A DNA stretch of 64,000 bases from Synoicihabitans lomoniglobus (GTDB lineage Bacteria; Verrucomicrobiota; Verrucomicrobiia; Opitutales; Opitutaceae). The notes under the pieces were generated by a model. The model was not told the DNA's origin. It was given only the letters and a program-made list of their open reading frames with translations, and did not search any database. The position numbers and the translations under genes were made by a program. This document shows positions 18,552 to 33,789 of this stretch, piece after piece (positions within the stretch are counted from its first letter, which is position 1; each line of letters begins with the position of its first letter). The DNA is taken from contig NZ_CP119075.1 of the NCBI RefSeq assembly GCF_029023725.1, forward strand, positions 1,483,501 to 1,547,500, in the 5' to 3' direction.

Positions 18552-18786
18552 TGGCTGGGTCCCGGAAGGATCTAAACACAAAGGCGCGGAGAATCGGAGA
18601 GACCACGTTGAACCTTACAGAAGTCAACGAAGGGCGCGAAGTCGGATTCCAATCGCGTGCCGGGTGGGTGCGGGTGAGAACTTGGATGTTAACGCCAAGG
18701 AGCGAAGGGGCAAAGGGAGAGAACGAGAAAGATTACGATGTCGTAGCAACAAGGGAGCGTGCTATCTGGCGGCCACTCCACTGGGG

Positions 18787-18808
18787 CGGTATTCGCAAGC
18801 GAACACCC
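18787..18808 (+). repeat. CGGTATTCGCAAGCGAACAC repeat, copy 2
   Basis: Identical to the 22-base repeat at 16589-16610. The surrounding 18552-18845 region contains no gene I trust; it holds fragments such as TTAACGCCAAGGAGCGAAG and CGCCTTGGCGGCTTGACG that resemble the TTTTAACGC hairpin elements seen elsewhere. Confidence 0.7.
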
Positions 18809-18886
18809 TACATCCATCCGGCCTCCGCGCCTTGGCGGCTTGACGGTAAGCGTCCGTTCTACCGCGTATGCGGAAGGGGTTGACGC

Positions 18887-20437
18887 TCAGGCCGCGGGTT
18901 TCCAGTCGCGCGGGGTAAGTTTGGCGGCAGCGACTTGGTGATTGGTCATGCCGGGCAGGCGATGGAGCACGTCGTTGAGGTAAGCGAGAGGTTCGACGTT
19001 ATGGCGGCGGCAGCATTCGAGGATGGTGTAGATGATCGCAGCGCGCTTGCCCGCACCGGGGTGCCCAATGAACAACCAGTTCTTGGCCCCGAGTTTGGTG
19101 GGGCGGATGGCTTGTTCGGTGAGGTTGTTGTCGATGCGCGTTTGCCCGTGCTGCACGTATGCGGTCAGCTTGCTCCACTGGGATCGGGCGTAACCGATGG
19201 CATCAGCGATGGCGGTTCTGGGCATGTGCGTGTCGATATCTTCGTCCAATGACTGCCTGATCTGTGCGAGGACTGGCACACTGCGTTCGGCCCGGATCTC
19301 CGCGACCTGCGCCACGCTCGCCTCGGCCGGCAATGACGCTTCGATCGCGTAGAGATCGCGGATGAGCACCAAGTAATGCGCCGCCCCGGATTCACCGGCT
19401 TGGTAGGCGTCGTAGAACCGTCGACGCGCGTGCGCCCAGCATCCGAGTTGCGTGATCTCGCGACCCTCGCTCACCCGGTCGTAGACTTGGTAGCCGTCGC
19501 TTTGCAGCAGACCGGTAAACTCGCACACGATGGCCTCGGCCGCGGCTTTACCCCGGCCCAGCGACCAATCAAAGCACAGGTCTCCTCCTGGATGTCCATA
19601 AACCCAGAGGTAACCGCGGCTACTTTGTCCTTTGCGATCCGGGTCAAGATAACGGATCGGCGTCTCATCGATCTGCAAGTAGTCGCCTCCGATCAATCCC
19701 TGCCGGATCGAGTGGTAGATGATTAACAGCCAGTTCTCGATGGCGTATCCGGTCCAGTCGCACAGGCGCTGACGCGGTAGCTTCACGCCGAAGCGTTGCT
19801 TGAAGCTTTTCTCCAATCGGTAGAGAGGAAGGTGGTCCACATATTTGGCCACCAAGAGGAACGCGATCAAACCGGCGGCGGGTAGTCCGCCCGGGATCAC
19901 CCGGGCCGGTAGCGGCGCAATGAAGGGCGCCGCTGCGGCTTGCCCCTTGCGTTTAAACTTCGGTCGCACGATCCGGCGACGGATCACCTTCATCGGCTGG
20001 ACATCGAGTTCTTCGGTCACTTCTTCACCGATGCGCTCGTAGGCCTCCGGTTCGGCCCGCACCTCCTCCGGGATGATTTCCTCGGTGATCGTCTCCAGGT
20101 CTTCGGGCAGTCGGGCCTGCGACTCCTCCGCCTGAGGTCGACGGCGGGCGTAGCCAATCACCTCCTTGGGCACCTCCTCCTGCTGCGCGCGTTCCCGCTC
20201 CATCTCGTCGAGAGCCAAGTTCAACTGCGCCTCGCTGACCTGCTCACCCCGCGACTGTCCGAACAGCTTGCGTTTCAGGGCCTCCAACTGGCGCTGCATG
20301 TAAGCCATCTCCGCATTGAGCGCCTTTAGCTCCGTGCCTAATACATGGTTTTCTTGCTCCAGTCGTTCGCATTCAAGACGCAGAACCTGCGCCTCATCAT
20401 CCTCCTGAAGATCGGTTGGTGGATTAACTGTCGCCAC
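18887..20437 (-). CDS. tnpC: IS66-family transposase (TnpC)
   Basis: 516-residue DDE transposase that cuts and joins the element's ends. An N-terminal coiled coil (about residues 15-60, LECERLEQENHVLGTEL) precedes a linker lacking the CxxC zinc finger of many IS66 transposases. The catalytic core has the first Asp in QIDETPIRYLD, the second in LQSDGYQVYD followed by GCWAHARRRFYDA, and the glutamate in DNNLTEQAIRPTKLG. The C-terminal tail YLNDVLHRLPGMTNHQ and KLTPRDWKP is the usual IS66 ending. It lies 27 bases downstream of tnpB on the minus strand and is full length. Confidence 0.95.
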   Translation of the reverse strand: MATVNPPTDLQEDDEAQVLRLECERLEQENHVLGTELKALNAEMAYMQRQLEALKRKLFGQSRGEQVSEAQLNLALDEMERERAQQEEVPKEVIGYARRRPQAEESQARLPEDLETITEEIIPEEVRAEPEAYERIGEEVTEELDVQPMKVIRRRIVRPKFKRKGQAAAAPFIAPLPARVIPGGLPAAGLIAFLLVAKYVDHLPLYRLEKSFKQRFGVKLPRQRLCDWTGYAIENWLLIIYHSIRQGLIGGDYLQIDETPIRYLDPDRKGQSSRGYLWVYGHPGGDLCFDWSLGRGKAAAEAIVCEFTGLLQSDGYQVYDRVSEGREITQLGCWAHARRRFYDAYQAGESGAAHYLVLIRDLYAIEASLPAEASVAQVAEIRAERSVPVLAQIRQSLDEDIDTHMPRTAIADAIGYARSQWSKLTAYVQHGQTRIDNNLTEQAIRPTKLGAKNWLFIGHPGAGKRAAIIYTILECCRRHNVEPLAYLNDVLHRLPGMTNHQVAAAKLTPRDWKPAA

Positions 20438-20464
20438 TATACGGATACAGTATCCGGCCTCCCG

Positions 20465-20791
20465 CTATTGGCCAGCCAAAGTGCGCTTTAGACGTAACTT
20501 TTTCACGTCTCCACCCGCGATCAGCCACGCAAGTTCATCACGCGTCAGCCGCTCCTGACCGTCCGGACTTTCCGGCCACGCAAACCGCCGGTGATGCAGA
20601 CGTCGCGTGCCGCACCAAACACCCGTCGCATCGACGACGAGGAACTTCAGCAGGCCTCTTGACCGGTTTGAAAACACGTAAAGCGCTTCCGGCTCCGGCC
20701 GGCCCACCAACGTCCGCAAGCTGTTCGCTCCTTTGCGCAAATCCACCACGCCGCCATACACGTAAATCTGTTCCGCTTCGATTCGAGCCAT
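20465..20791 (-). CDS. tnpB: IS66 accessory protein TnpB
   Basis: 108-residue IS66 Orf2/TnpB protein, needed for transposition of IS66-type elements though its biochemical role is unclear. Family features are VYGGVVDLRKGANSLRTLV near the start, ALYVFSNRSRGLLKFL and RRLHHRRFAWPE. It begins 59 bases inside the right inverted repeat and is followed by tnpC. Confidence 0.92.
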   Translation of the reverse strand: MARIEAEQIYVYGGVVDLRKGANSLRTLVGRPEPEALYVFSNRSRGLLKFLVVDATGVWCGTRRLHHRRFAWPESPDGQERLTRDELAWLIAGGDVKKLRLKRTLAGQ

Positions 20792-20860
20792 CCCGCCACT
20801 CTACCAACCCGAAGCCCTCCCGACTACCACGTGCTAGGACGGACGCTTACGCTTGACGAC

Positions 20861-23800
20861 TTAGCGTAAAAAATTCTGATCCCTGATACTGCTCGATTCC
20901 AACTGACTGACATTTGGGTTTTCAATCTCAATCACGGTCGGTAGGGTGCGCGGGCGGACCATGATGACCAGGGAGCGGATGTCGATGGTTGCGAGTCGGT
21001 TAGATGATGATGTTGAGGTGGCATCGGTGTCCGGGGGACTTCCTCCTTTGTCAAGACTGCCGCGGATCACCCGGGAAGCTCGTGAGAAGAACATGGGGGT
21101 GAAGTTGGGGGCGGCTTCGAGATAGTTTTGAGATTTGGCCTTTGCGTGTAGGCGAGGGATAACCGTCCAGAGGGTTCCGTCGGCGTCGCGGAAGTTGATG
21201 TCGAATTCTTCGATGCGGTTCTCGGCGGTTGCCGATGCGGGAAGGGGCGAAGGTTCCAGCTTCGTCCCGCCTTGCGGGACTTCTGCGGACATGCTGGTTT
21301 GTCGTGGTAAGACGAGTCGGTATTTGAAGCTTAAAGCGGCGTTCTGGGCTAATCTTAAGTCGGCGGGGAAGGGGAGTTCGATTTCTGCGGGGCGGAGAGA
21401 CTCGGAGGGAAGATCATTGACCGTGATGAGCCAGCTGTTGGGAGTTTCTTCAATATTTACACCCGGAGTGGTGAGCCAGCGTTTTGCAGTCGGGTGCTGC
21501 GTGAGCTGCGCTTCCCCATCGGCGAGCGGGCGGGCGAGTTGATCGGCGCGGGACTTGGCATTGTCGGCGGCACTGAAATCGAAGCTTTCGAGTCGCTCGA
21601 AACGGAATGCGGCGGGACTGGGATACAGCTGGGTGGCAAGGAGGGAGACTGCCGGTCTCTTGATCTTAACGTGTGAAGGTGTGAAGGAGTGAAGTTGCGA
21701 GGGGGCGTCCTCCTTCGCTGAAGCCCCCGCCGTAACCGAGTTTAAGGCGGGCGATTTGGCGGATTCGTCCGGGTGTTTTTCGTCAGGCGAAATGGAATCG
21801 GTCACTTTGGATTTCCAAGTCGCTACGAAGCGATGCGCGCGGAAGTTATCGTTGGGCAGCGTCGCAGTGAATTCAAGTCCGCGGCGCTCCATGGGGGCGA
21901 GGGTGATAGGGGGCGATTCGAATCCTGTTTCGAGGTCGGAAAGTCTGGTTGTTTTTGGAATGAAGTCGGTGATCGGAGGTGAGGTCGGCAGGGCTCCCTT
22001 ACTAATCTGGTCTTTTACTGACGCTTCGACAGGCACGGCCATCTGGGGGGCGATGGATTCGGTTTTCCCTTGGGCTAGAAGAAACTCTAGCGCCGGCGTT
22101 ATGGCGTAGATTTTGCCTTGGTTGGTGGCGATAATTGGGGTGTAAGCGTGAGGCCAATTCCGCTGGGTGGGCGGGCGGATTGACGAGCGGGCGGTGTCGG
22201 GACGGCGGTAGGGGATTGGTTTTTGCGTCGGTTCGCTTGTCGAAGATTTTATAAGCGCGGGCCTAGGGTCATATCTTCGAGTTGAGGATTGTGAGTCCGA
22301 GTCCTCTGTTGAAGCGTCAGCAAGCTGACGGCCTACCAAGGTGATCGTGCCGGCACCTAGCGAAAGAGAAAGGTTTCCGGTGACGGGGTTGTCGCTGAAG
22401 TTGTAGAGGATGATTTGGAAAGACCCTGTACTTGTTTGTTTTTCAAGGGAAGGAGACGGGAGCGTTAAATTACTGTTCTCAGGGGAGGCGAACGACGCAG
22501 AAGTCGTGCCTCGGTGGTTTACGCGCCGCAGGACATGCCCGTTGTAGCGTTTGATGGTTCGCGAGTCTTCACCAGCGATGAAGTCGAGAACGATCGGGTT
22601 CAAACTTTCGGTTTCAAGGCGTTTTAGCAGGGGCGAAAGGAGAGGACCACGGTCGGAACGTTTCTCTTTCGTCCCGCCCGGCGGGACTTCGGTGGACAAG
22701 GACGGTGAGCTGTGAGAAGGGATTGTATCACGATCCTGAGTTCGCGGGGCAGAGTCTGGGCCACTGCCGGAAGTTTGACGTTTAGATTCTCGCAGGAACG
22801 CGTCAGGGACTTCTGCTAGGAGTCCGAATTCGTTGATGCCTCTTTCATAATACGGCATGAAAACGAAGGCCATGGCTCCAGTGATGGTGCCATCGGTGAT
22901 GAAGGGCATCGTCAGCTCAAAGAAACGCTTTTGGCGCTCTCGACCTTCGACGGTATGGCGGTCGAAACGATCAAGAAGTCCGTAGCCGTATTCCGTCAGA
23001 AAAACCGGGAGGGGCGTTATTTTAGGTGGAAGTTCCAAAATCCAATTATCAAGTTCCAAGTTCTTTTCGGACTTAAAGTCGTCTAATCTTGGGTGGCTGG
23101 TGGCATGGCGCAGAGCCTCGATCCAGGCGTCGCGGACGCCACAAAAGTCTTCTGGGTAGCCATAGTAGTGGTAGTTGAAGGCTTCGGTATAACGCAACGT
23201 ATCATTGGCGACGAGTTCGTCCCAATAGGGGCCGGGAGGTAGGGCCATGGGCGAATGCATGACGGCCGAATCTCCAGATTCGGTCGAAGTAACAAAGTTC
23301 AAGTTTTCAAGTAACAGGTCGGAGGCCGGAGCTTTGGAGGTCTTAGCATCCCGGTGGCTTTGCGTTAAGATCGTCAGGTTTTCCTCGCGTCCGGCGATGA
23401 TGCCGCGACTACAGGCCTTGTAGAATGCGGCGAATGTTTCGGCGTTTTCGGGGATGAACCCAATGTCCGGCTCGTTCTCGATTTCCCAGGCGTCAATGAG
23501 ATCACCGTAGGTGCGGGCGAGCGCCCGACATCGTTCGAAGCTCTCCCGTAAGTCGAGCGGGAGCTTGGCCGGCTGGGAACGCATGCCCATATTCCAGGAC
23601 GAGGTCAGCCATCCGAGTTTGGCCACCAACCTATGACCGCGCGTACGCATAGCCATGAGAGCGGAACGACGCTCACGGATGGAAACGAGGTGAGGGGCGT
23701 CGGCCCACGGCCGTGACTCAATGCCCTCGAGGGTCGTGACTGCTGACGTAGCCATCCCCCGGACCCGAATCCAAGTACCGTCGTTACCCTCCATCCCTGC

Positions 23801-23938
23801 GTCATGCAGAACGCTCTCGGTTCGTTCGGGCGACCAGCCGGTGTCAAATCCCAATGGATTCGCTCCCGTGGCCGAAGGACCTATTGCAACGCAAAGCGCC
23901 AAAATACTAACGCGTAGCGATTGGAAGCGGAGGTTCAT
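20861..23938 (-). CDS. Large secreted glycoside-hydrolase-like protein with repeat-derived insertions
   Basis: 1,025-residue secreted protein. The ATG at 23938 opens a signal peptide (MNLRFQSLRVSILALCVAIG); a longer frame to 24007 would put 23 extra residues before it. The first ~370 residues look like a (beta/alpha)8 clan-A glycoside hydrolase: WEIENEPDIGF gives a candidate acid/base E156 and PVFLTEYGYG a candidate nucleophile E316. The family (GH5, GH39 or other) is not clear. The rest is low in conserved motifs, probably beta-sandwich domains. Several segments look repeat-derived: EVPPGGTK (about 413-420), EVPQGGTK (about 883-890) and NLELDNWILEL. Next to an O-antigen ligase, it may cut or trim the exported polysaccharide. 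Confidence 0.65.
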   Translation of the reverse strand: MNLRFQSLRVSILALCVAIGPSATGANPLGFDTGWSPERTESVLHDAGMEGNDGTWIRVRGMATSAVTTLEGIESRPWADAPHLVSIRERRSALMAMRTRGHRLVAKLGWLTSSWNMGMRSQPAKLPLDLRESFERCRALARTYGDLIDAWEIENEPDIGFIPENAETFAAFYKACSRGIIAGREENLTILTQSHRDAKTSKAPASDLLLENLNFVTSTESGDSAVMHSPMALPPGPYWDELVANDTLRYTEAFNYHYYGYPEDFCGVRDAWIEALRHATSHPRLDDFKSEKNLELDNWILELPPKITPLPVFLTEYGYGLLDRFDRHTVEGRERQKRFFELTMPFITDGTITGAMAFVFMPYYERGINEFGLLAEVPDAFLRESKRQTSGSGPDSAPRTQDRDTIPSHSSPSLSTEVPPGGTKEKRSDRGPLLSPLLKRLETESLNPIVLDFIAGEDSRTIKRYNGHVLRRVNHRGTTSASFASPENSNLTLPSPSLEKQTSTGSFQIILYNFSDNPVTGNLSLSLGAGTITLVGRQLADASTEDSDSQSSTRRYDPRPALIKSSTSEPTQKPIPYRRPDTARSSIRPPTQRNWPHAYTPIIATNQGKIYAITPALEFLLAQGKTESIAPQMAVPVEASVKDQISKGALPTSPPITDFIPKTTRLSDLETGFESPPITLAPMERRGLEFTATLPNDNFRAHRFVATWKSKVTDSISPDEKHPDESAKSPALNSVTAGASAKEDAPSQLHSFTPSHVKIKRPAVSLLATQLYPSPAAFRFERLESFDFSAADNAKSRADQLARPLADGEAQLTQHPTAKRWLTTPGVNIEETPNSWLITVNDLPSESLRPAEIELPFPADLRLAQNAALSFKYRLVLPRQTSMSAEVPQGGTKLEPSPLPASATAENRIEEFDINFRDADGTLWTVIPRLHAKAKSQNYLEAAPNFTPMFFSRASRVIRGSLDKGGSPPDTDATSTSSSNRLATIDIRSLVIMVRPRTLPTVIEIENPNVSQLESSSIRDQNFLR
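21261..21287 (-). repeat. GTCCCGC-CTT-GCGGGAC palindrome inside CDS
   Basis: TTCGTCCCGCCTTGCGGGAC, continuing TTCTGCGGACA, is a perfect 7-bp stem with a 3-base loop inside the glycoside-hydrolase gene. It is repeated in the same orientation at 22668-22694 and read in the same frame, giving SAEVPQGGTK. Confidence 0.7.
22668..22694 (-). repeat. GTCCCGC-CCG-GCGGGAC palindrome inside CDS
   Basis: TTCGTCCCGCCCGGCGGGAC, continuing TTCGGTGGACA, differs from the copy at 21261-21287 mainly in loop bases. It is translated as STEVPPGGTK. Both copies look like repetitive palindromes captured by the reading frame. Confidence 0.7.
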
Positions 23939-24037
23939 GTGGGCACGGGGAGACAAAACTCCATGGCCCGGTTCGGATACGGTTTCATAAATGATCGCAC
24001 ACTCCACTTCCTTGCGTCACTGCAAAAATCTCCAGAT

Positions 24038-25579
24038 TCATCGCATTCGCATTTCGAGACGAGGCAGAAGTAGGGCGAGAGTGAGAGATGTTATCAATGT
24101 GACGAGAATGGCAGGATTTTGGAGCGGAAAATCGACGGTGGCGTGAACGAGTGTAATCATACATGCACCCGATATCGAAACAGCCGCTAGATTTCGGAGC
24201 CCGCCATGGCGCAGGAATGAAACCAGTGCTACCACTAGTGCGGTCGCCATCCACACCAAGCCGGTTCGCCCGGTTTCTATCAATAGCTGCAAGTAGTCAT
24301 TGTGAACATGTTGCCAGAATGAATATCGATTTCCAATTTTGACAATATTCCCATCGATTTCCGAATAGCTTTGCTGAAATTTAGGAAAGAGGAATCTGAA
24401 TCCGCCTGCCCCCCAGCCAAAGATGGGATGTTCGAGCGACATATCGTAGCCGGCTAGCCACGCGTATTGCCGTCCCTTTATCGTGGCGTCGAATTTTTCT
24501 TTTTCCGTGAACACACTAAGACGATCGACCGTGCGATCGATATCGACAAGTTTTGTGCCGATGAAGGCAGTCGTCATCAATCCCACGAGGAGTACCGCAA
24601 TAAGAAGCGGCGCATGACTCGCGGTCCCTCTCACAATGACTCGCAAGGCGGCGTATATGACAGCGAGAAGGAGGAAAATCGCTAAAATGATTATCGCAGC
24701 CCGTGAGTACGACAATAGAACCGCAATAAGGAGAATAATAGAAAAGAATACGCACAATCCTGCCGGATTGCTTTTTATTCGTGTTCGCGTTGCCTGTTCA
24801 TGATAGTGAACCGCGAGGCTGAGGGTCAGTCCCGTGGCTAGAGCGAAGAAGCTTCCGGCATGGTTTTTATAAATGAAGGAAGAAAAACAGTAGTCTCGAA
24901 TTCCATCGACCAGCCAAAGAATTTTTGCCGGCGCGGTATAACGTGCAAGGACTCCCACGACGGCGAGAACACACGCATTCACGACAATGGCAGTCAGCAC
25001 GGTGATTACGGAGCGTCGGCGCGTAAAGCCGACCCAAAGCGCACAGGCGAGGAGGAAAGGGGCACCCCAAATCATCATCTGGCGCCAGATGTTCATGTGG
25101 CGGAAGGGGGTGATCATGCCGGCGGGGAGCCAATCCACATGGTCGATGCGGCGCATGGTCCAGGTCTTGCCTTTATCGATGTATTCCCAGGCGGGGTTGA
25201 GCGCTTGGATCAGCACATAGGCGAAGAAGACCACACCGATCCAAAATAATGGCCAACGGATCAGTTTGCGCCAAGGGTGGAGTGTGAAGGCATTTCCCCG
25301 GGTATAGTTGTCGGCATACTGGCGGGGTAAAAGAGCGAGGCCGAAGGCGGTGAGCGATAGTCCGAGGGAAATGAATTGGGCCCAAGCACGCATGCCGCCC
25401 AACATCCACGGCAGTGAGCATACGTTGATTGCCGCTACCCAGATCAAGGCGATTTCCAGCGGGTGAAGCGGGAGCGGCGCGCGCAGGTCGCCTTTGAAGT
25501 CGCGCAGCAGCTGTTCGTTTCTCGAAGATTTAGAAATTTTTAAATCGGTCTCCGCATCGTTCGGTGGGTAATCCGGCAT
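24038..25579 (-). CDS. O-antigen ligase family (Wzy_C) membrane protein
   Basis: 513-residue inner-membrane protein with about twelve hydrophobic segments and a large periplasmic loop before the last helices. That loop holds the family hallmarks: GRQYAWLAGYDMSLEHP, IFGWGAGGFRFLFP and FWQHVHNDYLQLLIETG, containing the conserved His and Asn-Asp-x-L-Q. Such proteins either ligate a polysaccharide to an acceptor (WaaL) or polymerise repeat units (Wzy); sequence alone does not separate these. The longer N-terminal cytosolic tail, about 45 residues and charged, is unusual. Its neighbours are the secreted glycoside hydrolase and a polyprenyl-phosphate sugar transferase, which fits polysaccharide assembly. 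Confidence 0.88.
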   Translation of the reverse strand: MPDYPPNDAETDLKISKSSRNEQLLRDFKGDLRAPLPLHPLEIALIWVAAINVCSLPWMLGGMRAWAQFISLGLSLTAFGLALLPRQYADNYTRGNAFTLHPWRKLIRWPLFWIGVVFFAYVLIQALNPAWEYIDKGKTWTMRRIDHVDWLPAGMITPFRHMNIWRQMMIWGAPFLLACALWVGFTRRRSVITVLTAIVVNACVLAVVGVLARYTAPAKILWLVDGIRDYCFSSFIYKNHAGSFFALATGLTLSLAVHYHEQATRTRIKSNPAGLCVFFSIILLIAVLLSYSRAAIIILAIFLLLAVIYAALRVIVRGTASHAPLLIAVLLVGLMTTAFIGTKLVDIDRTVDRLSVFTEKEKFDATIKGRQYAWLAGYDMSLEHPIFGWGAGGFRFLFPKFQQSYSEIDGNIVKIGNRYSFWQHVHNDYLQLLIETGRTGLVWMATALVVALVSFLRHGGLRNLAAVSISGACMITLVHATVDFPLQNPAILVTLITSLTLALLLPRLEMRMR

Positions 25580-25879
25580 GGGGGAAATAAACGACGAAAC
25601 CTGAAAAACTGGAAAGCTAAATCATGGGTGACGCGCGGCGATAGTGTCGGGTGCGATCAGGAGGGAACGCGGATGTCGGTGTCGGGTGTTCGCTTGCGAA
25701 TACCGTGGCGTGGTCGGGATGGCGCGCCGGACCGGATGGGTGTTGCTCGGTCGTCGCAAGCAACGCCCCTACAACGAGCGCCTTTGCGACCTTCCGCAAA
25801 ACGCTGACCGCTTACTACTCATTTACCTTCCACGGTCCATTGACACGCGTTCCACCACTTCTCTTGCTGACCGAGCCCA
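25580..25879. other. Divergent intergenic region with repeat
   Basis: This 300-base gap separates the O-antigen ligase (minus) from a sugar transferase (plus) and probably holds both promoters. It contains the reversed 22-base repeat at 25684-25705 and a related TTGC-loop palindrome near 25740-25775 (CGTCGCAAGCAACGCCCCTA). No gene is evident. Confidence 0.5.
25684..25705 (-). repeat. CGGTATTCGCAAGCGAACAC repeat, copy 3 (reversed)
   Basis: The exact reverse complement of the 22-base repeat at 16589 and 18787. Confidence 0.7.
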
Positions 25880-27295
25880 ATGATTACCTATCGTTTACGT
25901 GGTTTGGTAACGGCTTACGCTCTGTTCACGATTGTTTCCGCCAGCCTGCTATTGCTGGGCCTGGCGGAGCTGGTGCCCCACCTGCCTTATGTGGACTTGA
26001 GTGAGACCGTGAACCTCACGCCTTACATGCTGGCCGTTATGGCGGGAATGTTGATGGGGGCCCGTGATTTGTCGCTGGAGGCTCAGCGTTTGCATCGATT
26101 GCAAAGGCTGGACGCCGCGATGTTGGCATTGCGGCAGGTATTCGTCGTTGCGGCGTGCATTTTTACTCTGATGTTCGCGATCAAGGATCGGGCGATCAGC
26201 CGGGTGTTTCTGGGAGTCTATTTGACTGTCCTCTTCGGGTATTTAGCTTGGAGTCATGCGCGAATTCCGCGGGGACTGGCGCGCATGCTTTTCCCGCAGC
26301 AGCGTTTGATGCGCACGTTGTTTGTCGGACGATTTCAGGCCTTGGAGCGCTTGAATGATTGGGTTGCGAATCGCGAACATCTCGGTATTCGACCCATCGG
26401 CCTGTTGTGCGATGAGGTTCCCACTCGGGCCGACCATCTCATTGCGCCGCCGTTGGGTAAAATTGCGGACGCCAAGCGAATTATTGGGGGACATGGCGTG
26501 CAGCAGGTGATCATGCTGGAACTCATGGAAGATGTCAGCGCGGTGGAACATTTGGTCGATGCGTGCCAAGCTGAGGGAACCCGGCTGCTGATTTACAATA
26601 ACTATGCGGATCGATTGGCGCAGTCGTTCGTGCCATTGGAGGAAGGCGGACACCAATTTTTGGCTTTGCAGGAAGAGCCGCTGGAGGATCCGATCAATCG
26701 GGTATTCAAGCGGATCTTGGATATCTGCATTTCTCTTCCGGTCGTGCTCGTCGTGCTCCCGCCGCTGACGCTGTTCGTTTGGCTCGTGCAACGCTGGCAG
26801 GCACCCGGGCCGGTGTTCTTCGCCCGTCCCCGAGGCGGACAATATCGCAAGAGTTTCAACATGTTTAAATTCCGTTCCATGTTCACCGCGGAGCGGGACG
26901 ATCAGAAGGAGGCCCAGCAAGCGTCCTCGGGGGACGATCGGATTTATCCGTTGGGGCGTTGGTTGCGCCGGACGAGTTTGGATGAATTTCCCCAGTTCAT
27001 CAATGTGCTGCGCGGGGAGATGAGTGTGGTGGGGCCGCGGCCGCATTTACCTCGTCACGACGACGAATTTGCCGAACAGGAGCGTGCTTATCGTCAGCGC
27101 ATGCTGGTTAAGCCGGGTATTACGGGGATGGCGCAGACCAAGGGATTTCGCGGCGAAATCGACGATCCGGCAAAATTGAGTCGGCGCGTGTATTGGGATT
27201 TGCACTACGTCAATCATTGGACGCCATCGCTGGATATCGTTATCATTCTGCGCACGTTCTGGCAGGTGTTTTTTCCGCCCAATTCAGCATACTAG
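25880..27295 (+). CDS. Polyprenyl-phosphate sugar-1-phosphate transferase (WcaJ/WbaP-like)
   Basis: 471-residue initiating enzyme: it moves a sugar-1-phosphate from a nucleotide sugar to undecaprenyl phosphate, starting each repeat unit. Four N-terminal membrane helices precede a Rossmann-like domain (about residues 140-255). A further helix (residues 280-310) enters the catalytic bacterial sugar transferase domain. Signatures are FARPRGGQYRKSFNMFKFRSM, RRTSLDEFPQFINVLRGEMS and VVGPRPHLPRH. The C-terminus has LVKPGITGMAQTKGFRG. Sugar specificity (glucose or galactose) is unknown. A second enzyme of this class lies at 35.3-36.7 kb, so the genome may prime two glycans. Confidence 0.92.
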   Translation: MITYRLRGLVTAYALFTIVSASLLLLGLAELVPHLPYVDLSETVNLTPYMLAVMAGMLMGARDLSLEAQRLHRLQRLDAAMLALRQVFVVAACIFTLMFAIKDRAISRVFLGVYLTVLFGYLAWSHARIPRGLARMLFPQQRLMRTLFVGRFQALERLNDWVANREHLGIRPIGLLCDEVPTRADHLIAPPLGKIADAKRIIGGHGVQQVIMLELMEDVSAVEHLVDACQAEGTRLLIYNNYADRLAQSFVPLEEGGHQFLALQEEPLEDPINRVFKRILDICISLPVVLVVLPPLTLFVWLVQRWQAPGPVFFARPRGGQYRKSFNMFKFRSMFTAERDDQKEAQQASSGDDRIYPLGRWLRRTSLDEFPQFINVLRGEMSVVGPRPHLPRHDDEFAEQERAYRQRMLVKPGITGMAQTKGFRGEIDDPAKLSRRVYWDLHYVNHWTPSLDIVIILRTFWQVFFPPNSAY

Positions 27296-27791
27296 GACAC
27301 GGCGCTACCGCGCCGTGTAAGTTTCAACCGAACAAGTGACAAGTTCCAAGGGCGCGGCTGCGCCGCGAATGTGGCAACCGAGCACGTCTCAAATCTCAAT
27401 ACGCGACAGCGGTCGTCGATTTCGGACGAGGAAACCTGACCGCTGACACCTGAAGGCTGATCGCTCCGGAAGCGTAGGAGCGAGTTTACTCGCGACCGTT
27501 TGGTTCTCTCCGTTAAGTGGTCTCCGCGCCCTTTGCGCTGAAATCGTATCCGGATTTATCGCCGCAAAAAGCGCAAAAAGCGCAAAATCTGAATGATCGA
27601 ATCGGAGGTTTAAATTGGAGGTTTAACGCGAAGGCGCGAAGGTCGCGGGGTCCAACTAACGCGTTCCTTACTGGATGCGGACGACGTGGAAGTCGTCCCT
27701 CCGAGGCTTGGCGACCTTTGCGCCTTGGTGACTTTGCATTGATACCTTATAACTGAATGCTGACACTTGGCGACCTGGTCGCTTTCCCACG
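27296..27791. repeat. Repeat-filled intergenic region
   Basis: Nearly 500 bases without a gene, made of short repeat fragments. They include the hairpin at 27297, GGCGCGGCTGCGCCGCG near 27352, GTAGGAGCGAGTTTACTCGC at 27474-27495 (identical 22 bases at 28683-28704), a GGACGAC/GTCGTCC palindrome near 27679, and a TTTAACGCGAAGGCGCG...TTTGCGCCTTGG pair. The region separates convergent genes. Confidence 0.55.
27297..27318 (+). repeat. Hairpin just after the sugar transferase
   Basis: ACACGGCGC and GCGCCGTGT form a perfect 9-bp stem with a TACC loop, two bases past the stop codon. Only AAGTTTC follows, so it is at best a weak terminator and could protect the mRNA 3' end. Confidence 0.5.
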
Positions 27792-28577
27792 TTACACTCT
27801 GGACTTCGCTTGCAGGGGCGGTAAGTGCTCGCGGTAGCGGAAGAGGATCGGCGCGAGTCGGATGGAGTTCCAGTAGCGGGGGCCAAATTTTTTAGGATCG
27901 GAGAGGATGCGGAGCAGCCAGCCCAAGAACACTTTGTCGCCCCACGGCGGAATGTTGGTTTGGCCACCGGTCAGGAACGCAATCGCCGCGCCCAAGCAGG
28001 CGATCCCGGGTTTGCAAGAGAGGGATTCTCGGAGAAAAAGGCCTACACGTTCCTGCACGCCACCGCCGATGCACATCATAACAATCTGCGGTTTTCGTGT
28101 CTCAATCCGGCTGAGCAGTTCCGGGTCGTTTATCGCGTCCTTGCCATAAAACGGGGCAATGTAGATGTCGTCGTCGGTGATGGGATAACCCTGCTCTTCG
28201 AGCCAAGTCCGGTTGCGGACAGACTCCGCCTCGCTGGGCATGACCCAAAAAACGGATCCGGGGGACTTCAGCTGCGAGCGTTCGAGCAACACCCGCAAAA
28301 AGCGCAACCCCGACAGTCGCGGTAACTTTTGCCGCTGGAAGAGACGCCACAACAGAATCATGTAGCCCGAATCCGTGATCGCGAGATCCGCCGTTTGTAG
28401 GGCCTGGCGATACTCGGAGGAACGCATCAGATCGACCGCCAGTCCCGGACCGGATGGAGCTACCACAAGTCCGCCTTCAAGAATGCAATCCACGGCGGCG
28501 TCCATCGAGCCTACGAAAAAGTCGATACCGAGAATCCGTTGGGTGGGATGCGAAGTGAGAGGGGAAGCGGTAGCCAT
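27792..28577 (-). CDS. WecG/TagA/CpsF family glycosyltransferase (GT26)
   Basis: 261-residue GT26 enzyme. The family transfers ManNAc or a related sugar to a lipid-linked primer early in teichoic acid, ECA or capsule assembly. Recognisable blocks are VVAPSGPGLAVDLMRS, LQTADLAITDSGYMILLW, RLSGLRFLRVLLE, IETRKPQIVMMCIGGGVQE and ACLGAAIAFLTGGQTNIPPW, ending in RYWNSIRLAPILFRYRE. The conserved early Asp is within DLAITDSGYM. It is separate from the main cluster but fits the same polysaccharide pathway. The ATG at 28577 gives the expected family length. Confidence 0.9.
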   Translation of the reverse strand: MATASPLTSHPTQRILGIDFFVGSMDAAVDCILEGGLVVAPSGPGLAVDLMRSSEYRQALQTADLAITDSGYMILLWRLFQRQKLPRLSGLRFLRVLLERSQLKSPGSVFWVMPSEAESVRNRTWLEEQGYPITDDDIYIAPFYGKDAINDPELLSRIETRKPQIVMMCIGGGVQERVGLFLRESLSCKPGIACLGAAIAFLTGGQTNIPPWGDKVFLGWLLRILSDPKKFGPRYWNSIRLAPILFRYREHLPPLQAKSRV

Positions 28578-28682
28578 CAGAGTTTAGACGCACAATTTGA
28601 GCCACACGCGTCAAACTCGGAATTGGGGGAAGGCGCGGCGGCTTCCCGTTGAAAACGACTGATCTTGGAATACCCCGAAAAC

Positions 28683-28704
28683 GTAGGAGCGAGTTTACTC
28701 GCGA
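28683..28704 (+). repeat. GTAGGAGCGAGTTTACTCGC repeat
   Basis: GTAGGAGCGAGTTTACTCGC plus GA is identical to 27474-27495. The stretch 28578-28844 otherwise holds only related fragments (CTTCGCAAGCGAAGCCCCTA near 28781) and no gene. Confidence 0.65.
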
Positions 28705-28844
28705 TGAATGCGGTGGCGCTTTGCACGCGACGACCGCTTCGTCGACCAACGCACAGAACCTCCCTCGCGAGTCACGGTCTTCGCAAGCGAAGCCCCTACA
28801 ATTCGGAACAAGTAGAACCGTTCCCTCTCTGTGTCCCGTCGCCC

Positions 28845-29120
28845 TTAATTTTCGAAGCGGAAGACGAGTTCGTTGGGTTTGGCGTAGCCGAGGCGGCGGC
28901 GGATGATGAGCTCGACATAGGTCGGGTCGGTGCGGAGGCGTTGCAGCATTTCCTCTTGTTCGCGCAGGCGGGTCTCGGCGATGCGAAGGCGTTCGGCGGT
29001 GAGGCGTTCGGTTTCCAGGCGTTGGTCGTATTCGGCTTTGGTTTGCAGGAAAAACGTCGTTGAGCCCGCAGCCATCGCCACGAACACCAAAGCCAATACG
29101 ATCGTTACCAGTCGCTTCAC
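28845..29120 (-). CDS. Septum formation initiator family protein (FtsB/DivIC-like)
   Basis: 91-residue single-pass membrane protein with an N-terminal transmembrane helix (residues 4-23, LVTIVLALVFVAMAAGSTTF). An acidic/Arg-rich coiled coil follows at about 27-66 (LETERLTAERLRIAETRLRE), then RTDPTYVELIIRRRLGYAKPNELVFRF. This architecture and the closing RRRLGYAKPNE pattern match FtsB/DivIC proteins of the divisome. Assignment to FtsB versus DivIC is not possible by eye. It is flanked by repeat-rich spacers on both sides. Confidence 0.82.
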   Translation of the reverse strand: MKRLVTIVLALVFVAMAAGSTTFFLQTKAEYDQRLETERLTAERLRIAETRLREQEEMLQRLRTDPTYVELIIRRRLGYAKPNELVFRFEN

Positions 29121-29575
29121 GGTAATAGTCGAAGGGGGGATGGCGTCGGTCGCAAGTCGAGGATTGGGAATACCGAGTTTTTAACGCAAAGGCGCGAAAG
29201 CGCGGTTGGACCGCGCACGTATCAACCGATCAAGTTTCAAGTTCCAAACGCGGACGGAGGCCATGCGGTTTCGTTGGAAACCACAGATGAACCCAATTAA
29301 CGCAGTTCACAGAAGGTAACAAAGTTAACAAAGCGTTGTAATAAAGTGAGTTAAATCGATTAAACTGCATGGCATGCAACTCACCTTACAGGTGAATGAA
29401 TCGATGCCCATAATCGCCTGCAACTCGTTCCAGCTTCGTGCTCTTCGTTGCCTTCTGTAAAATCCAACTGCGGAATCTCGGATGAACGCAGATGGACACG
29501 GATTGAGTGTTCTTCTTGGCGCCCTTACCGGCTTCGCGGCTTTGCGTTAAAAATTCCGCTCGAATCGAGCACGTT
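29121..29575. repeat. Intergenic region of nested inverted repeats
   Basis: No gene is seen. The outer arms are TTTTTAACGCAAAGGCGCG at about 29177 and GCGGCTTTGCGTTAAAAATT at about 29535. Inside, ACAGAAGGTAACAAAG (about 29311) pairs with CTTCGTTGCCTTCTGT (about 29444). The layout looks like one hairpin element nested inside another. Confidence 0.55.
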
Positions 29576-29965
29576 TTAACCGGCGCGGAAGGTGAGGCCT
29601 TTGATGGTGCCGCAGCCGGGGACGGCTTTGATCTTGGGGAGGAATACGCGGCGGTTATTCGAGAGTTCCTGTTTGGCGACTGAGTTGGTCACCATGACGA
29701 CGAGCCAGCCGGATTTGCTGATCTCCACGACGTGAGAGTAAGCGGCTAACGTCGGTGTCACCAGCTCCGCCCAGCGGTCGCGGAGAGACTGTTCAGGGGA
29801 GCCTTGGCCGATGCCGTATTTGCCGACGATGCCTTCGATGATGTTGGCCGCCGACTGCGTGGGACGCTTGATTTGCCGCCGGGGTTCGTCGTTGGGCAAT
29901 CCGCGAAAATCGGCAATGAGATCATTGGCGAGTTTACTGAAATGGTCGGGATCACGACGGGGCAT
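29576..29965 (-). CDS. DUF721 (DciA-like) protein
   Basis: About 129 residues with the DUF721 pattern: a basic N-terminus (MPRRDPDHFSKLAND) and a core containing SPEQSLRDRWAELVTPTLAAYSHVV. A conserved ISKSGWLVVMVTNSVAKQEL stretch follows and the protein closes with a short GTIKGLTFRAG tail. In other bacteria DUF721 includes DciA, the ancestral loader of the replicative helicase DnaB; many members have unproven roles, so this is a possibility only. I chose the ATG at 29965; the frame extends ten codons further to 29995. Confidence 0.75.
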   Translation of the reverse strand: MPRRDPDHFSKLANDLIADFRGLPNDEPRRQIKRPTQSAANIIEGIVGKYGIGQGSPEQSLRDRWAELVTPTLAAYSHVVEISKSGWLVVMVTNSVAKQELSNNRRVFLPKIKAVPGCGTIKGLTFRAG

Positions 29966-30011
29966 GGCGGAGAAGTAACAAGGATCAAAGTCCAAGTTTC
30001 AAGACAGGCGG

Positions 30012-30206
30012 AGTTTTAACGCAGAGACGCGAAGACGGGAAGGTCGCTAAGTTATTTTATCCATCAAGCTGGCCTTTGCGGCTCAGCGACTTTGCGTTAA
30101 AATTCGGCGGATGTTTTTACACCAAGAACGCTAAGTTCGCAAAGCGATGCGGTGTGGTGCTTGGCGGTCTTTGCGGCCTTCGTGTAAAGTCTGCCTTCGA
30201 TCCGGT
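30012..30206. repeat. Two TTAACGC/TTTACAC hairpin elements
   Basis: The first element pairs TTTTAACGCAGAGACGCGAA (about 30013) with ACTTTGCGTTAAAATT (about 30089). The second pairs TTTACACCAAGAACGCTAAG (about 30115) with TCTTTGCGGCCTTCGTGTAA (about 30168). Both sit end to end between convergently spaced minus-strand genes and contain no frame. Confidence 0.55.
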
Positions 30207-31958
30207 TCACTCGGTCAGCGTCGCTTGGCGTTCGTAGAGGGTGCGGTAGAGGGGGTTGTCGGCGATGAGTTCGGCGTGGGTGCCGGAGGCGGCGAGTTCG
30301 CCGCGGTCGAAGACGAGGATTTTCGACGCGTCGCGGATGGTGCTGAAGCGGTGGGCGATGATCAGCACGGTTTTGCCGACGACGAGTTTGCGCAGCGCTT
30401 GTTGGATGAAGGCTTCGCTTTCGCTGTCCAGCGCGCTGGTGGCCTCGTCGAGAATGAGAATGGGCGCGTCGCGCAGGAAGGCGCGGGCCAGGGCGAGGCG
30501 CTGGCGTTGTCCGCCGGAGAGGGCGGCGCCGCGTTCTCCGACCATGGTGTCGTAGCCGTTGGGCAGCGCCGTGATAAAGTCGTGCGCAAAGGCGGCTTCA
30601 GCGGCGGCCTGCACTTGTTGGCGGGTCGCCTGTGGACGGCTCAGCAGGATGTTGGCGTAGACCGTATCGTTGAAGAGAACGGCTTCCTGCGAGACGATGG
30701 CGATCTGTTGGCGCAGGTCGTTGAGGCGGAAGTCGCGCACATCGATACCGTCAATTTTGACCGCACCGCTGCCGACTTCGTAGAAGCGGGGCACGAGGTT
30801 CGCGAAGGTGGATTTGCCGGCCCCACTTGGTCCGACGAGTGCGCATACCGTGCCGGCCGGGATACGCACGTCGACGTCGCGCAGAACGAGCTCGCCGTCG
30901 CGGTAGGCGAAGGCGACATTCTCGAAGGCGAGGTCACCGCGCGCTCGGGTGAGTTCGGTGGGCGTCTCGGGATCGGTAATCGCCACAGGTTCGTTGAGCA
31001 CGACTTCGAGGCGTTCGAGAGCGGCGGTGCCGCGCTTAAGTTCGTTGTTCAGGTTGCCGATTTTTTTGATCGGATCATACGCCATGTAGAGGGCGATGAT
31101 GATGGCGTTAAAAGTGCCGACGCCGACGCCGGTTTCGTAGGCCAATACGAAGGTGAGGCCAATGCCGGTGGCGGCCAGAAACTCGATGGCGGGACTGAGC
31201 GCTTGCGCGTATTTCACGATCTTCATCTGTGAAATCACGAGGGCGGAGGTGAGGGCGCTGAAGCGTTGGGTTTCGCGTTCTTCGAGGCCGAACGCGCGGA
31301 CTTCGCGGGCGGCGGAAAGGTTTTCTGAAAAGATGCCCGTGACCGAGCCCAGCTGGGCTTGGAACTGCTGCGCGCGCTTGATGACTTTGCGACCGATGTA
31401 GCGGATGGGGAGCACGGAGAGCGGCACGACGAGCATCCCCAGCAGAAGAATCGGCACCCCTTCTTTGGTGAAGCCGAGGTAGGTGAGATAACCGAGCGCG
31501 GCGACGAGCACGACGGGTTGTTTGACGCCGTCGTTGGCCAGTTGGGTCAGCGTGAACTGCAGTTGAGCGGTGTCGGCCAGGCCACGGGAAATGAGATCGC
31601 CGGTCTGACGGTTTTGCACGAACGAGAGCGGTAAACGTTGCAATGCACCGAAGTAATCGAGTCGCAGAAACTCCAGGATACGCACGCCGGCCGATTGCGT
31701 GAAATAGGTTTGGAGGTAGCCGCTGACCGCCCGCAAGAGGAACGCGAGCGGGATGGCCGCCGCGATCAGGATCACCTGACCCATGGGGAGCCCGCCGGTG
31801 TCGCTGAAGATCTTGGGGAAAACGTATTCCGTCAGGGCCGGCAGGGCGGCGCCGCTGCTGACGCCGTAGACGATCGCACAAAAGATCGCGATGGCGATCT
31901 GTTGCCGCACCGCCTTCAGGTAGCGGAAGTAGGGCCGGAGGCGCTGGAATTGGCCCAT
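30207..31958 (-). CDS. ABC exporter, MsbA-like (fused permease and ATPase)
   Basis: 583-residue half-transporter expected to dimerise and flip a lipid or lipid-linked glycan across the inner membrane. Six membrane helices occupy about residues 15-310. The nucleotide-binding domain has Walker A GPSGAGKST (about 377), Q-loop VSQEAVLFNDT, signature LSGGQRQRLALARA (about 480), Walker B ILILDEATSALD (about 500) and the H-loop IIAHRFSTI. The overall layout is MsbA/lipid-A-exporter type, but the substrate is not certain; a polysaccharide-linked lipid is also possible given the neighbourhood. The ATG at 31958 gives full family length. Confidence 0.9.
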   Translation of the reverse strand: MGQFQRLRPYFRYLKAVRQQIAIAIFCAIVYGVSSGAALPALTEYVFPKIFSDTGGLPMGQVILIAAAIPLAFLLRAVSGYLQTYFTQSAGVRILEFLRLDYFGALQRLPLSFVQNRQTGDLISRGLADTAQLQFTLTQLANDGVKQPVVLVAALGYLTYLGFTKEGVPILLLGMLVVPLSVLPIRYIGRKVIKRAQQFQAQLGSVTGIFSENLSAAREVRAFGLEERETQRFSALTSALVISQMKIVKYAQALSPAIEFLAATGIGLTFVLAYETGVGVGTFNAIIIALYMAYDPIKKIGNLNNELKRGTAALERLEVVLNEPVAITDPETPTELTRARGDLAFENVAFAYRDGELVLRDVDVRIPAGTVCALVGPSGAGKSTFANLVPRFYEVGSGAVKIDGIDVRDFRLNDLRQQIAIVSQEAVLFNDTVYANILLSRPQATRQQVQAAAEAAFAHDFITALPNGYDTMVGERGAALSGGQRQRLALARAFLRDAPILILDEATSALDSESEAFIQQALRKLVVGKTVLIIAHRFSTIRDASKILVFDRGELAASGTHAELIADNPLYRTLYERQATLTE

Positions 31959-32045
31959 GGTTTATAAAGTCGAGCGGAGGGTGGCGCGGCGAGGTATCTC
32001 GCAACGGGTCGGATAGTTTCGGGCGGGTTCCGGCGCGGTCACCAT

Positions 32046-32125
32046 GTAGGAGCGGGCTGGCGCGCGATGGCATTTTCCTTTCAGGACCAACGCACTGGGT
32101 TCATCGCGCGCCAGCGCGCTCCTAC
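32046..32125 (+). repeat. GTAGGAGCG inverted repeat element
   Basis: The left arm GTAGGAGCGGGCTGGCGCGC (32046-32069) and the right arm (32102-32125) match at 23 of 24 positions in opposite orientation around a 32-base spacer. Each arm contains a GCGC-rich mini-palindrome. It lies between the MsbA-like gene and the toxin gene. Confidence 0.65.
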
Positions 32126-32181
32126 GTTTTAGGTCTGAAAGAGAGGGCATGGGTCAAGCGGAGGAGAAGGCGGCGTTGCCT

Positions 32182-32601
32182 CTATCGGTCGGGATGAATG
32201 AGAGAGATCACGCTGCGACCATTGCGCCGGTAGTGAAAGAAATCTGAATCGGTGGTGAACACCGAGGCGTGAGAGTGGAGTTCGCTCATGCGGACAATAC
32301 AGGCGTCGGCCAAGGACATCGGGGTGTCCTGATACTTCGCGAGGAGTGAAACCAGCGATTCAAACTGGTCGGACATCGAGAATGATAGCTGCACAATTTC
32401 ATCAGTTACCAACGCGGCCCATCGGCGCAATCCCCGGTCATGCTGACGGAGGAGAAAGGCGGTTTCAGCCAGAACCGATTCGCAGGTAAGCATGGGAGCC
32501 TGCATCGTCATTAATTGAGATTTGGCCCACGTGTGATGGTGGTCACGCCGATCAAGCAGAGCCACCAACGGTCCGGTATCAACGATGATCGGGGAGGCCA
32601 T
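32182..32601 (-). CDS. PIN-domain toxin (VapC-like ribonuclease)
   Basis: 139-residue PIN-domain protein, probably an RNase acting as the toxin of a type II system. The acidic metal-binding residues are visible: D8 in IIVDTGPL, E46 in ESVLAETAF, D99 in SLADACIV and D118/D120 in FTTDSDFF. Its start overlaps the end of the upstream antitoxin gene by 23 bases, the usual layout of a VapBC operon. The RNA target cannot be predicted from sequence. Nothing suggests degeneration. Confidence 0.85.
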   Translation of the reverse strand: MASPIIVDTGPLVALLDRRDHHHTWAKSQLMTMQAPMLTCESVLAETAFLLRQHDRGLRRWAALVTDEIVQLSFSMSDQFESLVSLLAKYQDTPMSLADACIVRMSELHSHASVFTTDSDFFHYRRNGRSVISLIHPDR

Positions 32602-32827
32602 ACCCTGTCATGGATTTGGACTGCAAAGACAAGTCGCCGGGACCCTCGATTGAGCCTATCAGGTGGGCCGCTTTTTGGGCCAATGATCGGGGCTGGTTGG
32701 AAGCGCTCGGGTTCCATTGTTCAAATGCTTCACGCAATAACGCCGAGTGAGTGGTATGGCGTTTCTTGGCTTCCTGTTGCAGCCGAGAGTGCTGCGCCGG
32801 AGTCATTTTTACGGTTACCGTAGGCAT
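32579..32827 (-). CDS. Antitoxin, ribbon-helix-helix type (VapB-like)
   Basis: 82-residue protein preceding and overlapping the PIN toxin. The N-terminal part PTVTVKMTPAQHSRLQQEAK followed by HTTHSALLREAFEQW fits a ribbon-helix-helix DNA-binding fold that would dimerise and repress its own operon. The C-terminal Ser/Gly-rich tail would be the toxin-neutralising segment. I chose the ATG at 32827, where the RHH strand begins; the frame continues to 32863. The family assignment is by fold pattern and partner rather than strong sequence identity. Confidence 0.72.
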   Translation of the reverse strand: MPTVTVKMTPAQHSRLQQEAKKRHTTHSALLREAFEQWNPSASNQPRSLAQKAAHLIGSIEGPGDLSLQSKSMTGYGLPDHR

Positions 32828-32877
32828 GCCTGATTGCGTATTACGCAAGTGGCAGAATGTCAATACGTCGGGGCGAA

Positions 32878-33789
32878 TCAGTCTTTGGAAGAACGGACAT
32901 CCAGCGCGTCGCGCAGGCCGTCACCGAGGAAGTTGAGCGAGAACAAGGTCAGCGAGAACACCGCGCCGGGGAACATGAGCAGCCACGGGTATTCTTCCAT
33001 TTTCTCGGCGCCGTCCTTGATGAGCACGCCCCAGGAGCTGAGCGGGGGCTGCACGCCGAGGCCGAGGAAGCTGAGAAACGCTTCGAGCAACATAACCGCT
33101 GGGATCGTGAGCGTAGTGTAGACGATGATCGGGCCCAGCACGTTGGGAATCATGTGGCGGAAAATGATGCGCCGTTTGCCGATGCCGAGCGAACGGGCGG
33201 CCTCGATGAATTCCATCTTCTTAAGCGACATGATCTGGCCGCGCACGATGCGCGCCATGGTGAGCCATTCCACTGCGCCGATGGCGAGGAACAGCAGCCA
33301 GATGTGACGCCCGAAAAACACCATCAGCAGGATCACGAAAATCGTGAAGGGCAGGGCATACATGATGTCGACGATGCGCATCATGACGGAGTCGGTTTTG
33401 CCGCCGAAGAAGCCCGCCACTGCGCCGTAGACGACGCCGATGGTCAGCGCGACGAAGGTGGCGCAAAGGCCGACGCCGATGGAAATGCGGCCGCCGACGA
33501 GGAGACGCACGAGCAAGTCACGTCCGAGTTGATCGGTGCCGAGCCAGTGCGCGGCGGAGGGTGGTGAAAACGTGTTGTTGAGGTTATTGTCCTCGTAGCC
33601 ATAGGGGCTGAGCCAAGGACCGACGATACACGCGACCGCCAGCACGATGAGGGCGGTGCCGCCGAAGACGGCGATTTTGTTTTTGGCCAAACGATGCCAG
33701 GCGTCGCGCCAGAGGGAGCTGCCTTGTTCGAGATCTTCGACGGCGGGAATCCCGGCGGGAAGTTTGTCGGCGGTGGGAGAGAGCGTCAT
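32878..33789 (-). CDS. oppC: Oligopeptide/dipeptide ABC permease, OppC-like
   Basis: 303-residue inner-membrane subunit of a peptide importer. After a cytosolic N-terminus the first helix is KIAVFGGTALIVLAVACIV; then comes the OppC signature HWLGTDQLGRDLLVRLLVGG and five further helices. The EAA loop reads EFIEAARSLGIGKRRIIFRH, which contacts the ATPase subunit. QPPLSSWGVLIKDG is also typical. It lies 50 bases downstream of oppB. No ATPase (OppD/F) or binding protein (OppA) gene is in the neighbourhood. The last helix and FLGDGLRDALD ending indicate a complete protein. Confidence 0.92.
   Translation of the reverse strand: MTLSPTADKLPAGIPAVEDLEQGSSLWRDAWHRLAKNKIAVFGGTALIVLAVACIVGPWLSPYGYEDNNLNNTFSPPSAAHWLGTDQLGRDLLVRLLVGGRISIGVGLCATFVALTIGVVYGAVAGFFGGKTDSVMMRIVDIMYALPFTIFVILLMVFFGRHIWLLFLAIGAVEWLTMARIVRGQIMSLKKMEFIEAARSLGIGKRRIIFRHMIPNVLGPIIVYTTLTIPAVMLLEAFLSFLGLGVQPPLSSWGVLIKDGAEKMEEYPWLLMFPGAVFSLTLFSLNFLGDGLRDALDVRSSKD

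Follow-up and report, generated by a model that had tools for sequence, protein, structure and literature searches.

Short repeats carried inside bacterial protein genes have been described before, and the closest account concerns the family Opitutaceae itself. In the available parts of that account (Di Nocera et al. 2013, PMC3733652), Opitutus terrae carries more in-gene GTAG repetitive extragenic palindromes (REPs) than any other genome compared, and its REP-tagged proteins include uvrA, DNA ligase and RNA helicases. In-gene REPs were proposed there to serve as flexible linkers or loops, and two Xanthomonas recB genes were seen to hold different REPs at about the same site. The same source gives GTAG as a REP tag and puts REP families at 20-100 units 'or even less'. 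GTAG-tagged REPs are associated with REP-associated tyrosine transposases (RAYTs). Here we analyse a gene at 20861-23938 of a 64,000-nucleotide stretch of the Synoicihabitans lomoniglobus genome (Opitutaceae; contig NZ_CP119075.1, positions 1,483,501 to 1,547,500), which we call the window. Two GAAGTCCCGC-NN-GGCGGGACGAA hairpins, a stretch of AAGTTCC heptamers and a stretch of TTCACTCC octamers share one minus-strand open frame in this gene.

The hairpins in this gene (F1 and F4, Table 1) resemble the O. terrae REPs in being palindromes inside protein genes of the same family, whereas tandem arrays of 7- or 8-nucleotide (nt) units in proteins were not found in the available parts of that account (PMC3733652). 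Rickettsia palindromic elements (Ogata 2000, 2002, as described in part of a review, PMC10969869) are likewise in-frame repeats in unrelated protein genes, a likeness drawn from their description; the first of them measured about 150 bp, whereas the hairpins here measure about 24-37 nt and are accompanied by tandem arrays. The heptamers of Xanthomonas and Nostoc (PMC4692102) and the TAACTGA repeat of Beggiatoaceae (PMC4679880) are also 7-nt units that lie in spacers, with a minority in open reading frames (ORFs). In the available parts of these two papers each group has one unit type, whereas here the units differ between related genomes; the Beggiatoaceae ORF copies lie mainly at protein ends (PMC4679880), unlike those in the internal linkers studied here. 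The intragenic RU elements of enterobacteria (PMC2759123, seen in part) are similarly small mobile sequences in genes, of 103-168 bp. Among the matches listed, as judged by titles and abstract openings, we found no report of in-frame 7/8-nt arrays in linkers of orthologous proteins. In-gene REPs of O. terrae are already published; new here are the F1 hairpins as a family, arrays of non-triplet units and the abundance of such arrays in this protein beyond expectation.

We consider it probable that repeats of two kinds have been added in frame to tolerant linkers of this protein, repeatedly and in different lineages. New protein segments inside working genes are usually inferred from old events. 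Where one protein family carries different recognisable repeats in each lineage, the source of the segments, the filter imposed by the frame and the preference for certain sites can be read directly, and the gene is a natural experiment in how bacteria gain protein segments. Low-complexity linkers of Opitutaceae may be repeat debris, and caution is advisable before they are called functional motifs.

Arrays and insertions in the orthologues

Arrays of 7- or 8-nt units were detected with Tandem Repeats Finder (score of at least 32) in orthologues trimmed to the residue aligned with the start of the window protein. Eleven orthologues were counted, with G018 left out (relatives are given by our genome handles); the G056 array and one G010 array precede the aligned start and were dropped, and the window gene itself, which has two arrays and was picked for its repeats, was excluded from the total. 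The count was 21 arrays in 27,078 bp, compared to 1.02 expected from the coding rate (42 in 1.11 Mb) and 5.77 expected from the spacer rate (42 in 197 kb). These background rates were taken from six sampled genomes (0.1-0.5 Mb each, including one 20-kb stretch fetched for holding F1 and some stretches with runs of N), with coding and intergenic DNA split by a simple custom gene caller. Arrays were present in 7 of the 11 genomes (G002 5, G059 3, G012 1, G047 3, G010 1, G043 7, G031 1). This protein has an excess of arrays over other coding DNA and over spacers, with units that differ between orthologues. An earlier count of 14 arrays against 0.66, from five genomes, was dropped as biased, four of them having been sampled after repeat-like peptides had been noticed.

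Three sites hold arrays in more than one gene: residues about 188-218 (G002, G043 and G031), 279-303 (the window gene, G002, G059 and G043) and 378-397 (G012, G047 and, with a 14-nt period, G010). All remaining arrays stand at single-use sites. Units of 7 or 8 nt traverse all three reading frames. Eight units have stops on a single strand, and for six of them (one being the uncounted G056 array) it is the stop-free strand that is read. The remaining two, both in G059, are read from the other strand, and together they make 15 nt, which keeps the frame open. Use of the stop-free strand is a requirement of an open gene and not independent proof of selection. Likewise, the sequence-only reading was right that all the repeats preserve the frame, but this follows from the open frame.

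Twelve orthologues were aligned, and the weak matches in G027, G052 and G041 were excluded. Ten of the twelve entered an occupancy test, which omitted the close relative G002 and G018, whose gene is cut by a contig end. Residues encoded by the nine repeats tested were matched in a mean of 3.3 of 10 orthologues, compared to 6.9 of 10 for the whole protein (p = 0.0035 with independent placement and 0.0028 with a joint shift, values that are rough because F2b and F7 were chosen after the alignment had been inspected). Occupancy was lowest for F4, which was unmatched throughout, and for F6, F7 and six of the eight F1a residues, each matched in at most 1 of 10; alignment positions in the linkers are uncertain by some residues. 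In the same-genus pair G059 and G012, the arrays and the G012 hairpin blocks appeared as gaps in an otherwise good alignment. Most repeat segments are absent from most orthologues. The proposal of the sequence-only reading, that repeats seed new peptide segments, is borne out by this occupancy and by the arrays in orthologues, and more widely than it had claimed; orthologues that shared the segments as conserved parts would have spoken against it, and the segments are mostly unshared.

Similar features occur in other proteins and linkers. By eye, serine-rich, array-like peptides occur at an identical C-terminal site in rsmB of G010 (L193) and G022 (L160), and at the protein level two species share a C-terminal or linker site with array-like peptides in RsmB and in HrpA. 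In the G012 orthologue (L033), hairpins such as CATGGGCAGGATGCCCATG encode GRDARAT- or GMGILPM-like peptides at several linkers.

The F1 hairpin family

The window gene holds two exact copies of the palindrome GTCCCGCNNNGCGGGAC, one at 21264-21280 and one at 22671-22687, and both translate to EVPxGGTK, just as the sequence-only reading had noted. The exact palindrome occurs at three places in the 5.93-Mb genome, two of them in this gene, and the reversed pattern at none. All three copies have the longer core GAAGTCCCGCNNGGCGGGACGAA in common, and the two in-gene copies form a 43-nt pair with 79% identity. The third copy, which answers whether the palindrome occurs elsewhere in the genome, stands directly 3' of a tRNA-Ala gene and in no frame of at least 150 codons.

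The element is spread more widely across the family. At up to one mismatch, F1 gave 70 matches in 30 of 250 Opitutaceae genomes, with a maximum of 12 per genome and none for the reversed control; exact matches numbered 10 in 4 of 95 genomes (control 0). G010 had no F1 match at up to one mismatch. The copies read suggest the consensus TCCGCC-G(A/T)A-GTCCCGC-NNN-GCGGGAC-GAA-GGCGGA, in which the outer stem is variable. The tag was read in 40 copies, some of them chosen for having a T there: it was GAAG in 22, GTAG in 11, ATAG in 4 and another tag in 3. Both window-gene copies are tagged GAAG, and F4 is tagged GTAG. It is this tag that would link F1 to the GTAG-tagged REPs. F1 is a short palindrome within the 20-40 bp size range of REPs and is present in 3 copies in its own genome; F4 has 2 copies in a 484-kb sample, the second in a distant spacer. 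Judged by its sequence, F1 is a REP-like element. Hairpins of this type were, we infer, moved by Y1 (RAYT) transposases, and the S. lomoniglobus genome has 18 Y1_Tnp matches, one with an internal stop.

Two F1 copies in other genes, each in a different genus from the window gene, are clean, in-frame insertions. In rsmB of G022 the segment is absent from all nine aligned relatives (the weaker RsmB matches of G004 and G103 were excluded), and in ispG of G103 the 8-residue segment is wholly absent from 10 of 11 relatives. The process, which the sequence-only reading described for a large exported protein, is not confined to such proteins, since the same element has entered ispG and rsmB as well. 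HrpA of G103 was dropped as a further candidate, the net gain at F1 being 3 residues. Other long frames around F1 were not counted, since three TPR proteins were unaligned and several others look spurious. The three TPR proteins, in G132 (L171, L172), carry the F1 peptide RSPAxRDxG together with repeat-like QVSGLRSQVS and FQVSGFKFQV in frame. A generic search for GAA-loop hairpins returned few besides F1, and CTGGAG hairpins, when counted with 3 mismatches allowed, gave numbers too loose to be informative, which were set aside.

Competing accounts of the linker repeats

In the account that we favour, the protein would combine a conserved core with linkers and loops that are permissive to many stop-free sequences, and these linkers would have received short repeats of two kinds, both also present in spacers. 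The first kind would be REP-like hairpins, namely F1, mostly G(A/T)AG-TCCCGC-NNN-GCGGGAC-GAA within an outer TCCGCC/GGCGGA stem, and the GTAG-tagged F4. The second would be tandem arrays of 7-8 nt, whose units differ between orthologues. An insertion would survive if it preserves the frame and introduces no stop codon; in a linker it would be neutral enough to persist, and the linkers would be refilled over and over in separate lineages. Arrays may grow by slippage and spread chiefly via short-range copying. The resulting linker peptides are, we infer, translated and tolerated. Refilling from a genome's own repeats is partly supported, because five of nine units (GAACTTG, GACCTTCA, TTTCAGCG, GAGGACA and GGACGGT) recurred outside the gene more often in the sample from their own genome than in the five remaining samples, in small numbers, and four did not. 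The in-gene units are species-specific across the six genomes, except for AAAGCTGA, which is in both G059 and G012, members of one genus.

Several observations weigh against this account. Four of the 11 orthologues (G056, G011, G008 and G050) have no 7/8-nt array. F1b, F2b and F3 have intermediate occupancy, F1b and F3 being partly matched in orthologues, and two repeats touch conserved stretches, F5 by overlap (occupancy 8-10 of 10) and F2 by extending into one; the after-the-fact choice of F2b and F7 belongs here too. The four units without own-genome preference are TTCACACC, AAAGCTGA, GGCTGAA and GGACAGT, two of which were found solely in another genome's sample, and GACCTTCA and CTCTCAG pairs are present in several genomes. 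For F1, both window-gene copies have decayed outer stems, and the net gain in HrpA was small. Simple words stood at the simulated level in the 484-kb sample (F1pal 6 against 6.7, F2c 8 against 7.3, F2 1 against 0.7, F7 1 against 0.3), and AAGTTCC pairs at 2 mismatches in 12 genomes numbered 36 against 49 for the control.

The strongest rival is duplication within the gene only, in which slippage and template switching would copy words among low-constraint linkers and nearby spacers with no mobile element; we regard it as plausible, at somewhat under an even chance. The F7 start word GACGAATCCGCC is consistent with it: in 896 kb sampled from S. lomoniglobus and G002 the word is confined to this gene, with a single occurrence in the window gene and three in its G002 orthologue, two of them whole elements and the third partial. 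So is the presence of two of the three exact F1 copies in this gene. AAGTTCC pairs at 2 mismatches number 4 in the S. lomoniglobus genome (control 0), three of them within about 6.2 kb, and the link between the heptamer and its spacer copies is local, the pair exceeding its control in this genome and not over the 12. In G043, 9 of the 25 genome-wide matches to CTCTCAG pairs (CTCTCAGCTCTCAGC) lie in this gene, at 4 places, with 2 more about 2 kb beyond. Such local copying sits poorly with the occurrence of F1 in 30 of 250 genomes, with the outer stem that the G004 copies and the third own-genome copy retain, with the clean insertions in ispG and rsmB, and with the second F4 copy in a distant spacer. 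The scatter of F1 over genomes and genes is what a mobile element would give, and other repeats are clustered, for which short-range copying or slippage may be the simplest account.

Other counts describe the same distribution. GACCTTCA pairs were counted in G002 (6, of which 3 in the gene), G059 (5), G008 (1) and G047 (1), with 1 for the control. CTCTCAG pairs peaked in G010, with 109 against 10 for the control, whereas G043 had 25 against 0. All eight TTAACGCAAAG-type matches of the 484-kb sample fall in the window. GACGAATCCGCC also precedes an F1 copy in G004. A bolder proposal, which we regard as doubtful, is that Opitutaceae genomes go on inserting non-triplet repeats of 7-8 nt into protein linkers: local repeat-templated copying with a changing 'word' would rebuild a recurrent set of proteins at their linkers (the present one and perhaps RsmB and HrpA), such that in-frame peptide would arise continually, and REP-like hairpins would reach the same permissive segments.

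Retention of the repeats for a role in DNA or RNA, such as a hairpin acting on mRNA stability, folding or termination, with the peptide as a by-product, appears improbable. Two F1 copies outside long frames do fold well (z = -4.7 and -4.6), one copy is directly 3' of a tRNA gene, and near residue 220, where the window gene has F5, the G002 gene has a different hairpin with a 16-bp stem. However, folding is weaker for the two F1 copies in the window gene (z = -2.6 and -1.7), and array units differ between most orthologues.

Chance, by which many words and many spacers would give shared motifs in what are ordinary low-constraint linkers, can be set aside as very improbable: it gains from the near-chance counts of simple words, of AAGTTCC pairs and of the 17-nt palindrome pattern at 2 mismatches (3 against 0.8 in the window, reached in 5 of 100 shuffles), but not from simulated counts for F1ext (3 against 0.3, with one stretch fetched for holding F1) and F3 (8 against 0.3), the 21 arrays against 1.02, the 70 F1 matches against none or the clean ispG and rsmB insertions.

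The protein, its surroundings and the feature list

The product of the gene is probably an exported protein with repeat-filled linkers. Its N terminus, read directly in the sequence, is signal-like, and the motifs WEIENEPD and FLTEYGYG were read in the same way. The protein was matched in 16 of 95 genomes counting its own, that is, in 15 of 94 relatives. Across 14 aligned proteins, the Glu of the NEP-like motif and the Glu of the TE(YG)-like motif are invariant, and these two residues are the candidate catalytic pair. Going by these motifs, the protein is perhaps a clan-A glycoside hydrolase-like protein of Opitutaceae. The secreted glycoside hydrolase called in the sequence-only reading is compatible with the signal-like N terminus and the motifs. 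Curated families gave no match: the window protein had no sequence match in Pfam, NCBIfam or the PDB, and its 14 homologues had none in Pfam. A profile search of the PDB returned two chains (E = 0.29 and 0.81), neither of which is a glycoside hydrolase, and structure models were discarded as unusable for judging the (beta/alpha)8 barrel of clan A (mean predicted local distance difference test score of 38 for the whole protein and 36 for its N-terminal part). In the homologue pair G050/L074, nonsynonymous divergence (dN) was 0.16 and synonymous divergence (dS) 0.65, which is a sign of purifying selection on that pair. The remaining pairs were more divergent, with dS of 0.8 to >2 among the 13 pairs listed.

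Table 1. Repeat features of the window gene and related copies nearby (window coordinates)
Feature	Position	Strand	Details
ORF	20861..23938	minus	1025 residues from ATG; frame open to 24007; no internal stops
F1b, REP-like hairpin	21260..21283	minus	EVPQGGTK; counterparts of its residues in 1 to 5 of 10 orthologues
F6, octamer array, 3.0 copies	21671..21694	minus	coding unit CTTCACAC, peptide LHSFTPSH; residues have counterparts in no more than 1 of 10 orthologues
F7, GACGAATCCGCC...GCGAAGGAGGAC element (GACGAATCCGCC...GGAGGAC)	about 21708..21774	minus	peptide HPDESAKSPALNSVTAGASAKED; matched in 1 of 10 orthologues
F4, GTAG-tagged hairpin GTAGGCCGTCAGCTTGCTGACG	22315..22336	minus	VGRQLADA; unmatched in 10 of 10 orthologues tested
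F1a, REP-like hairpin	22667..22690	minus	EVPPGGTK; 6 of 8 residues have no counterpart in any of the 10 orthologues tested
F2, degenerate heptamer array	23030..23063	minus	coding unit GAACTTG, peptide KNLELDNWILEL; extends into conserved stretch
F5, palindrome CCGAATCTCCAGATTCGG / CCGAATCTGGAGATTCGG	23266..23283	minus	TESGDSA; overlaps conserved residues
F2b, CAAGTT-like stretch	about 23293..23314	minus	peptide LLENLNFV; read directly
F3, ACGCAAAG-family copy	about 23341..23368	minus	peptide LTQSHRDAKT
GAATCTGGAGATTC copy, 1 mismatch	24026..24039	minus	upstream of ATG
CAAGTTCCAA copy	27340..27349	plus	upstream of gene
CAAGTTCCAA copy	29238..29247	plus	upstream of gene

Five of these repeats, F4, F5, F3, F2b and F7, had not been named in the sequence-only reading. 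The octamer stretch that it placed near 21670 is F6. The spacer motif CAAGTTCCAA that it saw in the gene is there, as is the copy at 27340, but the one it put at 29237 starts one position later. The three occurrences, at 23050, 27340 and 29238, compare with 0.12 expected, and none of 100 shuffles reached three.

A 136-residue block (residues 534-669; window 21932-22339) was matched in at most 3 of 10 orthologues and is partly common to G002. Its ITPALEFLL end resembles an SPALAWL segment that lies earlier in the chain of other orthologues, as if a segment had been relocated.

On one side the gene adjoins what looks like a polysaccharide locus, since the neighbours at 24038-28577 match the O-antigen ligase, sugar transferase and WecG-type glycosyltransferase families. 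On the other side is an IS66 transposase gene (18887-20855), and the DNA up to about the stop codon of the window gene resembles, as we presume, an IS66 end, which suggests an IS66 insertion directly 3' of the gene.

An exact 12-mer count over the 484-kb sample gave no dominant family. Repeats of the ACGCAAAGGCGCAAAGG type extend across 18686-35197, and two tandem repeats, at 50012-50479 (177 bp, 2.6 copies) and 34894-35314 (211 bp, 2 copies), have the hairpin units GGCGGTTTCGCCGAAACCGCC and GGCGCGCTCGGCGAGCACGCC in common.

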